Of a DNA stretch of 64,000 bases, positions 33,670-36,973 are shown piece by piece. Under the pieces are notes generated by a model that saw only the letters and a list, made by a program, of their open reading frames with translations, had not been told where the DNA came from and searched no databases. A program made the translations under genes and the position numbers. The stretch comes from Brevibacillus laterosporus DSM 25 (GTDB taxonomy: Bacteria; Bacillota; Bacilli; Brevibacillales; Brevibacillaceae): the NCBI RefSeq assembly GCF_002706795.1, contig NZ_CP017705.1, forward strand, positions 1,553,501 to 1,617,500, in the 5' to 3' direction. Position 1 is the stretch's first letter; each line of letters starts with the position of its first letter.

Positions 33670-34929
33670 TTACATCTGTTGCTCAACAACTCGCTTATTT
33701 GCAAAATTCTTTTGAAAGATATAGTAGTAAAAAATGGCCGCTAGAAGCATACATGTGCCGTGTATGAAGAACAAGAAGCTTACACCTATATAGACGGGGA
33801 AAGTAACAGCGATAATTCCCAACGTAATAGAATGTGACAGCATCATCATAGGCGTAAGACACCCGTATACTCTTCCAATTATTTTGGGGTCAACGAGGCT
33901 TGGCAACCAACCACCAAAACCTATATTTAATAAGGGAAAAGCCAGAGAAATGAAAAAATCAAGGAGAATAAAAATGGAAACGTTGTTCGTAAGACCTGAG
34001 AAAACAACCGAGATCCCCATAATCATAAGGGAAAGAACTGCTATGTGATATAGTTTCATTTTAGTTGCTAAATAGGACCCGACTACACTTCCAAACAAAG
34101 CACCTACTCCTGACACAATCCCCATCCATAGCAATACTGTCTCATATGACTCTGGAGCAAGTTTGTACTTCAATGCGTAAGTAGGAATGAGTGCATAACC
34201 GGCATTTATAATTCCAAATAGAAAAAAAGCACTTGATATGGCTAATACTAGTTTATTATTCCAAATATATCCAACGCCTTTACTGAAATCTGATATCAAG
34301 GCTCCTATTGATACATCTTTCCACGATTTCTCACCATTTGGCAATCTGATTTCTACTTTGATATGGCATAATTGGATTAGCAATCCAGATACCAGATATG
34401 ATATGGCATCTACCAAGATTGCTCCCTCTATACCAATGTGCCAATAAAGAAAGATACTAATGGAACTGCCTACTAATATAAGAATACTGTTTACCATTTG
34501 ATTTAAACCGGTAGCTACTGGATATTCCTTTTCGGTTAAAATGCCTTGCATGATAGCTCTTTGTGCAGGACTAAAAAAATTAGAGACTGCACTCCTCACA
34601 AATATGATGAAAAAGGAAAGGACGATGGAATCAATGGCAATAGCAAAAAGTAATCCTAGAGAAAGAAAAGCACAAATAAAATCCGCCCAAGAAGCAATCT
34701 TTTTGCGGTCAAAACGATCTGCCACAGCACCGATGAACAAGAAAATGACAAGCATGGGGAGAGAGTACATTAATTCTGTAATGGTGGCAAAGATAGGCTG
34801 TGAAGAAAATCTTGTAAGAATATACAATGTGAATGCGATGAGACCAATTTTATTGCCCATAGAGGAAGTTACATTCGCCAGAAAAAGATATGTATAGTTT
34901 TTATTTTTGAATATTCTTATGATATCCAA
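33670..34929 (-). CDS. MFS transporter, probable exporter of the RiPP locus
   Basis: The protein is 419 residues with about 12 membrane helices, of the drug/peptide-exporter MFS type: GAVADRFDRKKIASWAD in the TM2-TM3 loop, SAVSNFFSPAQRAIMQGILT in TM4, and VSGVGALFGSVVGSYLAT in the second half. The start is TTG 34929, eight bases after AAGGAG. It follows the PqqD-like gene by 151 bp in the same direction, so by position it is the likely exporter of the modified peptide or its immunity function. A general drug-efflux role unrelated to the locus is possible. Confidence 0.82.
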   Translation of the reverse strand: MDIIRIFKNKNYTYLFLANVTSSMGNKIGLIAFTLYILTRFSSQPIFATITELMYSLPMLVIFLFIGAVADRFDRKKIASWADFICAFLSLGLLFAIAIDSIVLSFFIIFVRSAVSNFFSPAQRAIMQGILTEKEYPVATGLNQMVNSILILVGSSISIFLYWHIGIEGAILVDAISYLVSGLLIQLCHIKVEIRLPNGEKSWKDVSIGALISDFSKGVGYIWNNKLVLAISSAFFLFGIINAGYALIPTYALKYKLAPESYETVLLWMGIVSGVGALFGSVVGSYLATKMKLYHIAVLSLMIMGISVVFSGLTNNVSIFILLDFFISLAFPLLNIGFGGWLPSLVDPKIIGRVYGCLTPMMMLSHSITLGIIAVTFPVYIGVSFLFFIHGTCMLLAAIFYYYIFQKNFANKRVVEQQM

Positions 34930-35080: not shown

Positions 35081-35356
35081 CTAGGTAGTAAGTAACCTAT
35101 GCCTAACTAATTCATCTAAAAACATCTGTATATCATTTGTAATCATCGTATTTTCTGTATTAACATTAAATTTTCCCGATATCTCTTTTAGCATCTCTTC
35201 TAGCGTAATTGTTTCTTTCGTACAAATATGTGTCCACAGTGTACAGGCTACTTCATCCTCAAACAATATCGTTTGTCCTTCAGGTGTAAGGACAAATATA
35301 CCCTCTACATTTTGATCATAAAAGATATCTTTGTTTACTTGATAGGGAGACATCAT
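35081..35356 (-). CDS. PqqD-like peptide-binding (RRE) protein
   Basis: The protein is 91 residues with a PqqD/RiPP-recognition-element fold: three N-terminal strands (GIFVLTPEGQTILFEDEVA) followed by helices (CTLWTHI, EEMLKEISGKFNV, DIQMFLDELVRHRLL). Such proteins hold the leader peptide and present it to the radical SAM enzyme. Its ATG overlaps the last base of the TAA of the radical SAM gene (TAATG), with AGGAGG upstream, so the two are translationally coupled and probably work as a pair. Confidence 0.85.
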   Translation of the reverse strand: MMSPYQVNKDIFYDQNVEGIFVLTPEGQTILFEDEVACTLWTHICTKETITLEEMLKEISGKFNVNTENTMITNDIQMFLDELVRHRLLTT

Positions 35357-36651
35357 TAGGAAGGAACCTCCTCTTTTGATTTTCTAAAATAATTCCACAT
35401 ATGTTTTTTCAAGTTACTTTTTATAATTTTGCACTCTTCCGTGTTTGTGCCATCTATACTGTCTGTATCGCTCCATTGGATAGCTCTACATCCACCACCA
35501 CACATATGTTTAAATGTACACTTTCCGCAAATTGGTAAGTTATCCGTGATTCTGTTTCGGGATGCAGTAAAGACTGGAGATTCGTAATAAATTTCTTCTA
35601 ACGATTTGTCTTTTACATTTCCACCTAAAAACTCGGGATTATGCATGATTTTACAGGGAAATACATCGCCTTTGCTATCAACCGAAAACTCACTATACGC
35701 GTGACCACAATGATTTTTAATGAAAAACTGGTTAACAGCATCAAAATTAGGTTGTTTGTTGATGATTGTGTTTTCGATTTTTATACGTTGCACATAATTT
35801 AATTCGTGTTCGTGAGTCTTGCCTCTTCCTAATGAAGCTACAGGAGATATAATGAGCCTGATGTTATTTTTATTTGTATAATCGATTACGTCCCCCACAG
35901 CATCCATATTATTTTTCGTGATTGTCTGGTTAATTTTTAACTTACAACCAGCTTCTAGCAATAAATCAATGGCCTTTTTCGCCTTCTGCCACGATCCTTT
36001 TCCCCTATTTTTGTCATGCTCGTCCTCGATCATGGAATCAAGGCTTATCGTTACTAATTTCGTAATCTCGGCAATTTTTTTAGCTATCTCTTTGTTAGAA
36101 ATAAAAGAACCATTTGAAATCATATGGACATTCAACCCTAAAGAATCGGAATATTCCATTAATTCCACGAGATCTTTTCGTAAAAATGCCTCTCCCCCTG
36201 TAAAAACAATCGTTTTTGTCCCTAATTCCTTTACTTCTGTGATGACTCTTTTAGCCTCTTCGGTAGAGATATCATTATCCATAGATCTGCTGGGGCTACT
36301 TTCTGCATAACAATAGACACAATTTAAATTACATTTGTATGTTGTAACAAAATAAACAGATTTAGGTACAGGTTTATGCATACTTTGCTTGTTCTCAGTA
36401 TCTACATTAAAGCTATCAATCTTATACAGTCTAATCAAACCAATGACCCTTTTTACCAAACTTGCATCGTACTGTTCATCAATTAAACCCTGCGGTGACT
36501 TTTTGTTGTAAATCATTTCATGCGCTATTTCATATTCTTGCTGATTCAACACAATCCAACTACTCACCAAGTAATTATGAATAATATAGTCTTCCTTTTC
36601 TCGATAGACAGCTAATTTTGGAAAAGTTAATACATCATCGGTTACTAACAT
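35356..36651 (-). CDS. Radical SAM/SPASM peptide maturase
   Basis: The protein is 431 residues. Residues ~5-80 form an N-terminal recognition-like domain (LAVYREKEDYIIHNYLVSSW). The radical SAM core has the cluster motif CNLNCVYC (Cys107, Cys111, Cys114), then FTGGEAFLRKDL and TISLDSM. The C-terminal SPASM region has CGHAYSEFSVDSKGDVFPC and CGKCTFKHMCGGGC, room for two auxiliary [4Fe-4S] clusters. This layout is shared by sactipeptide/ranthipeptide-type thioether synthases and related maturases. Likely substrate is the 33-residue peptide encoded 79 bp upstream. Ribosome site GGAAAGGAATG. Bond type formed cannot be told from sequence. Confidence 0.9.
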   Translation of the reverse strand: MLVTDDVLTFPKLAVYREKEDYIIHNYLVSSWIVLNQQEYEIAHEMIYNKKSPQGLIDEQYDASLVKRVIGLIRLYKIDSFNVDTENKQSMHKPVPKSVYFVTTYKCNLNCVYCYAESSPSRSMDNDISTEEAKRVITEVKELGTKTIVFTGGEAFLRKDLVELMEYSDSLGLNVHMISNGSFISNKEIAKKIAEITKLVTISLDSMIEDEHDKNRGKGSWQKAKKAIDLLLEAGCKLKINQTITKNNMDAVGDVIDYTNKNNIRLIISPVASLGRGKTHEHELNYVQRIKIENTIINKQPNFDAVNQFFIKNHCGHAYSEFSVDSKGDVFPCKIMHNPEFLGGNVKDKSLEEIYYESPVFTASRNRITDNLPICGKCTFKHMCGGGCRAIQWSDTDSIDGTNTEECKIIKSNLKKHMWNYFRKSKEEVPS

Positions 36652-36677
36652 CGTATCATTCCTTTCCTAATAGAAAT

Positions 36678-36713
36678 AGTAATGGCACTATTTTTACAAG
36701 TAGTGCCATTACT
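36678..36713 (-). terminator. Attenuator-like hairpin between precursor and maturase genes
   Basis: AGTAATGGCACTA and TAGTGCCATTACT form a perfect 13-bp stem with a 10-base loop, followed on the minus strand by TTTCTATTAGG. Partial termination here would give far more precursor transcript than maturase transcript, a usual arrangement in RiPP operons. Confidence 0.7.
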
Positions 36714-36730
36714 ACTATTACCTATGTGTC

Positions 36731-36832
36731 TTACGCTCCTGCTCCATTTTTTGAACCACATTGACAAGAATCAATTACATCAATTACGCCAGGGTTTACT
36801 ACTTTCACTTTTGGTGTTGTATAATTTTTCAT
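36731..36832 (-). CDS. Putative RiPP precursor peptide, 33 residues, Cys-x-Cys core
   Basis: Small gene below usual gene-calling size. ATG at 36832 preceded by a textbook ribosome site (GGGAGGTGAGAGT) and a sigma-A promoter. The peptide starts MKNYTTPKVKVVNPGVIDVI, a leader-like part, and ends DSCQCGSKNGAGA with two Cys separated by one Gln and a small-residue tail without aromatics. Position (promoter, peptide, hairpin, radical SAM, PqqD, exporter) makes it the substrate of the maturase. The Cys residues would be the thiol donors for thioether links; acceptor residues are unknown. I do not recognise the family. Confidence 0.85.
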   Translation of the reverse strand: MKNYTTPKVKVVNPGVIDVIDSCQCGSKNGAGA

Positions 36833-36876
36833 ACTCTCACCTCCCTTCTATAAATAGCATAATTTAACTTTACTTA

Positions 36877-36905: not shown

Positions 36906-36932
36906 TAATTAAAATAATTTACTTTCACTAAA

Positions 36933-36973
36933 AAAGCCAGTTAAACATTGATATGTTAATTTAACTGGCTTTA
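36933..36973. terminator. Terminator between hydrolase gene and RiPP operon
   Basis: AAGCCAGTTAAA and TTTAACTGGCTT arms form a strong hairpin ending in T-runs on the minus strand, just beyond the hydrolase stop. It insulates the RiPP promoter. Confidence 0.85.

Follow-up and report, generated by a model that had tools for sequence, protein, structure and literature searches.

The window, that is, the whole stretch of 64,000 nt of Brevibacillus laterosporus DSM 25 DNA analysed here, contains a 33-codon open reading frame on its minus strand that is a genuine RiPP precursor gene. It is likely to belong to a four-gene sactipeptide cassette, in which the precursor gene is followed by genes for an StsB-like radical SAM/SPASM maturase, a PqqD-type RRE encoded as a discrete protein, and a probable exporter of the MFS type. 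The small precursor-peptide gene proposed in the preliminary description was thus borne out, by cluster context and conservation. The features of the locus are as follows.

36731–36832, minus strand: precursor peptide gene, 33 codons, ATG start
35356–36651, minus strand: radical SAM/SPASM maturase, StsB-like, 431 aa (PF04055 and PF13186)
35081–35356, minus strand: discrete PqqD-type RRE, 91 aa (PF05402, E 2e-5)
33670–34929, minus strand: MFS transporter, probable exporter (PF07690, E 2.5e-25)
36845–36838, minus strand: ribosome binding site GGGAGGTG, read from the sequence
36905–36877, minus strand: promoter-like site TTGACA-17-TAAATT, from a promoter scan; such sites are not above the shuffle count
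36930–36971, minus strand: inverted repeat and T-run, probably the terminator of the hydrolase gene upstream, read from the sequence; its loop is beyond the scan length
36675–36716, minus strand: strong stem-loop in the gap between the precursor and maturase genes (z −5.2)
36682–36867, plus strand: antisense ATG frame of 61 codons, from the ORF list

The gene had also been described as overlooked because of its size. This does not hold, since the precursor has been a published predicted sactipeptide of B. laterosporus since 2019. Table 5 of that report lists the identical 33 residues as a BAGEL3-predicted sactipeptide of strain BGSP7, together with peptides of BGSP9 and BGSP11 that carry three substitutions relative to the window peptide (PMC6510442). 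Table 1 of a 2025 paper gives the identical peptide for XJ-24-3, again as a predicted sactipeptide (PMC12503217). Full-text literature searches for the leader string and for the core matched only PMC6510442 and PMC12503217; a B. laterosporus sactipeptide cluster was mentioned as early as 2016, with no sequence in the passages available (PMC5100339). RT-qPCR on the structural gene showed a transcript that increases in stationary phase (PMC6510442), which counters the absence of a transcript. Because the cDNA was primed with random hexamers, the published assay does not resolve strand or promoter. The RRE, the leader motif, the relatives and the structure of the product are not given in the available parts of the BGSP7/BGSP9/BGSP11 and XJ-24-3 papers. 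What is added here is the mechanistic placement of the peptide beside the StsABC system.

Translation of the ORF gives MKNYTTPKVKVVNPGVIDVIDSCQCGSKNGAGA, with a leader motif YTTPKV at residues 4–9, cysteines at positions 23 and 25 and a Gly/Ala-rich tail. The leader satisfies the [Y/W]xxPx[L/V/I/F/A] motif of discrete lasso/LPP/Sts-type RRE recognition. In an alignment of nine distinct precursors, Pro7, Cys23, Cys25, Gly30 and Gly32 were invariant, and the proline of [Y/W]xxP preceded the first cysteine by 14–16 residues in the six precursors measured. The maturase gene begins 79 nt after the ORF, so that a Cys-containing precursor adjoins a radical SAM/SPASM maturase, the arrangement by which sactipeptide loci are recognized. 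Searches of PHROGs with the peptide and with the RRE returned zero matches.

Whether the tail GSKNGAGA is a follower segment or part of the core had been left undecided. After CxC, the precursors of relatives mostly end in a short Gly/Ala/Ser-rich C-terminus. This is the region in which sactipeptides place their thioether acceptors, and the evidence favours a core over a follower. The same reading would follow from the enzyme, since an StsB-like maturase is expected to form Cys-to-alpha-carbon thioethers; StsB itself is said to form alpha-thioethers. Gly30 and Gly32 are candidate ring partners because they align in all nine distinct precursors.

Among 90 families, the maturase scored best against the StsB model NF045574 (270.9 bits, below the cut-off of 625), about 120 bits ahead of the second-best family (150.7 bits). 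Its full-length structural model was poor (pLDDT 57), too poor for an active-site comparison, and fold matches to CteB and SkfB therefore carry little weight. For residues 1–80 of the enzyme the model is fairly confident and shows three strands with three helices, which may form an RRE-like domain in addition to the discrete RRE. The gene for the latter overlaps the maturase gene by one base. The predicted RRE structure (pLDDT 90) has the PqqD-type winged-helix fold, and the best-matching PDB entry was the complex of TbiB1 with a lasso leader (E 3.4e-4, TM 0.82). With positions mapped by inference from a HMMER alignment, the Asp equivalent to D70 of LppB is invariant in nine of nine RREs, and the position equivalent to N33 is Asp in all nine, as in TbiB1. 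The MFS transporter matched 2A0121 (E 2.1e-61, below cut-off). The cassette consists of these four genes only and has no leader peptidase. The sister genome G001 lacks the cassette: its hydrolase and adeR genes are separated by 65 bp. The four genes have thus been gained or lost as accessory genes. Elsewhere in the window's own genome (G000:C1, ~5300482–5302395; L002 and L003), two more radical SAM genes stand side by side on opposite strands; the pair is also present in G001, G003 and G004.

The closest known system is StsABC of Actinomycetota (NF045558, NF045574), which has the same order of precursor, StsB-like maturase and discrete RRE and shares the [Y/W]xxP leader, the CxC and the Gly-rich core. 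StsC, the discrete RRE of that system, was shown experimentally to bind the WxxP motif in the leader of StsA (PMC12710340). The StsA model NF045558, with a cut-off of 42 bits, did not match the window peptide at E values up to 10 (0/1, own genome). As the curated cut-offs for both StsA and StsB are not reached, we regard the window system as a Bacillota relative of StsABC and not as a member of the family. The window system resembles LppB, TbiB1 and FusB1 of the LPP and lasso pathways in having a YxxP leader and a discrete RRE of PqqD type that would read it, with a predicted fold match. Binding of a YxxP leader by LppB was established by crystal structure and mutagenesis, and the leader consensus [Y/W]xxPx[L/V/I/F/A] was derived in the same study (PMC13381572). 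The window RRE differs from LppB at the N33 position, and the combination of SpI-like peptidase, HprK-like kinase and NTP transferase that defines LPP clusters was not found in the window cassette, which also has no macrolactam cyclase. Streptosactin of Streptococcus (GggAB) resembles the window peptide in its short sactipeptide core with small-residue acceptors; in the available part of the review, a protease (GggC) and regulators are named and an RRE is not (PMC8172795). We also considered NF045574 StsB as the streptosactin enzyme of Streptococcus. This idea was dropped: the presumed Streptococcus genus (assigned via a ComC match in G154) gave a match in 0 of its 284 genomes, the controls also being without match, and the Sts system is placed in Actinomycetota (PMC12710340).

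We propose that the leader (Y4-T-T-P7-K-V9) would dock on the RRE as a strand and that the RRE would present the docked peptide to the radical enzyme. The maturase would then link the sulfurs of Cys23 and Cys25 to alpha-carbons of the Gly/Ala-rich tail, so that at most two compact rings form, with a predicted mass loss of 4.03 Da. The calculated mass of the peptide is 3392.69 Da without modification, 3390.67 Da with one ring and 3388.66 Da with two. The leader may next be removed by a protease encoded outside the cassette, the MFS protein may export the product, and the product is probably a stationary-phase antibacterial.

The product may instead be a signal, a cofactor or a metal-binding peptide, which we consider rather unlikely. 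Similar parts are used in the mycofactocin and PQQ pathways, a Gly-rich core with a CxC could serve as a metal-binding site, and exporters vary between clusters. On the other hand, the accessory nature of the cassette, absent from G001, and the growth-phase expression in the published RT-qPCR (PMC6510442) fit a bacteriocin, although neither is decisive. Less probable still is a true precursor that undergoes other radical SAM chemistry, yielding beta/gamma-carbon thioethers as in ranthipeptides, epimerized residues or C–C crosslinks, while the cysteines stay free or form disulfides. The fold is common to radical SAM/SPASM enzymes of many chemistries, and the maturase also matched mycofactocin MftC (149.6 bits) and, at lower scores, other families. 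Against this, StsB leads by ~120 bits, the tail of MKNYTTPKVKVVNPGVIDVIDSCQCGSKNGAGA after CxC has no aromatic or acidic acceptors, and the PapB ranthipeptide model was not among the 25 best of the 90 families for the window maturase. A sactipeptide remains our preferred assignment.

Related maturases were present at full length in 4/5 genomes of the genus; further surveys gave related maturases in 4/39 of the order, 7/398 sampled genomes of the class (the best four candidates per genome being scored), 5/75 of the genus g33 and 8/235 sampled genomes of the family f4; among 398 sampled genomes of the phylum, the only hit was the window's own. These surveys overlap and together give 13 distinct Bacillota clusters (G000, G003, G004, G002, G222, G153, G133, G441, G402, G1144, G1117, G1150 and G1158). 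A scan of genome contigs gave a single close relative, a maturase in a Brevibacillus laterosporus contig that is 98% identical to the window enzyme; it was counted once with G004. Searches of plasmids and phages with the maturase gave only distant matches, except for the StsB cluster on a Streptantibioticus cattleyicolor plasmid, which is the 14th cluster. Its maturase is 29% identical over 98% of the window enzyme and, with 738 bits, passes the StsB cut-off of 625. It begins 122 nt after an ORF ending in CSCGCGSGGGGGAGS, which scored 24 bits against the StsA model, below the cut-off of 42. The region (L057:4744–6757, plasmid pSCAT) is an unannotated StsABC-like cluster of precursor ORF, StsB, PqqD-type RRE and ABC genes, the ABC gene standing in place of the MFS gene of the window cassette.

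We then searched the 400 nt before each maturase gene for ORFs of 25–60 codons with a ribosome site, [Y/W]xxP within the first 12 residues and CxC later. Exactly one such ORF was found in 14/14 clusters, compared with 0/28,000 randomized regions. The test is partly circular for the first nine clusters and S. cattleyicolor, as the pattern was drawn from those; the four clusters from the f4 survey came after the pattern was set, and all fit. The gene order precursor, maturase, PqqD-type gene was found in all 14 clusters. In G002 the cluster has another location and is accompanied by a ferredoxin and two ABC proteins. Paenibacillaceae-like clusters have an archaeal-type signal-peptidase-like gene after the RRE gene (TIGR02228, E 3.6e-10, below cut-off). 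Signal peptidases carry their nucleophilic Ser in an SMxP motif; in eight loci (L038, L040, L041, L042 and L062–L065) the protein has Cys at this position (GNCM or GHCM, then xP) and could be a Cys-type leader peptidase. For the Paenibacillaceae-like clusters in general, analogy with LppS (PMC13381572) makes a role of this protein as leader peptidase plausible.

The preliminary description had relied on promoter, ribosome site and position. Both signals are present, and the hexamers and spacing of TTGACA-17-TAAATT are conserved in the relatives G003 and G004. By count alone, however, size, ribosome site and promoter do not exceed chance: the whole window has eight short ATG ORFs with a ribosome-site core (6.75 expected from Markov-1 randomizations), and a 4.5-kb stretch has 17 promoter-like sites (17.9 expected from shuffles). 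What does exceed chance is context and conservation. As described earlier, the antisense frame of 61 codons exists and has neither signal: a purine-rich ribosome site before its start was looked for and none was seen, and the nearest listed plus-strand promoter-like site lies at 36314–36343. G003 and G004 also keep the antisense frame open, over 61 and 60 codons respectively, so openness does not discriminate between the strands. In all five g33 clusters (G222, G153, G133, G441 and G402), TGCAAGCGCTTAC lies upstream of the precursor, just before the ribosome-site region; going by the cre consensus, we take it to resemble a catabolite-repression (cre) site. All 14 clusters have a stem-loop between the precursor and maturase genes (z −1.9 to −5.3), with unrelated sequences between groups. 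It may terminate part of the transcripts or be a site of processing, and in this way keep the precursor in excess.

Frame-disrupting changes were looked for in the close relatives, and the frame is kept in both. The G003 precursor differs from that of the window by two nonsynonymous codons, that of G004 by two synonymous and two nonsynonymous codons and one codon deleted in frame (3 nt). A comparison of synonymous and nonsynonymous changes had been suggested as a check on the gene; in g33, synonymous codon changes outnumbered nonsynonymous ones in 10/10 pairs of the five precursors (2:0 to 18:3). Within Brevibacillus, synonymous changes do not predominate (0:2 and 2:2), and the changes are too few for a dN/dS argument, which we dropped there. 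It is barely credible that the ORF is open by chance and that what matters here is the maturase mRNA leader region with its stem-loop, or the antisense frame. In favour of this reading, short ORFs with a ribosome site are not rarer than chance in the window, and the antisense frame is uninterrupted in both G003 and G004. Against it, the antisense frame has no ribosome site, and neither the five invariant residues nor the result of the motif test fits a chance frame.

Taken together, these results settle the ORF as a real RiPP precursor gene and connect a peptide listed by genome mining with a mechanism whose relatives have been solved and tested. The clusters supply several natural variants of one core. 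Tentatively, and with somewhat less than even confidence, we suggest that they may form a Bacillota sactipeptide branch parallel to actinomycete StsA and below the curated cut-offs. Such a branch would tie a CxC(xC) ladder of two or three cysteines to a very short Gly/Ala-rich tail, giving compact rings unlike the long hairpins of subtilosin and thurincin, and a sequence-unrelated stem-loop in each cluster would hold the maturase below the precursor in amount. The window system adds one more case of the [Y/W]xxP code shared by lasso, LPP, PQQ and sactipeptide pathways.
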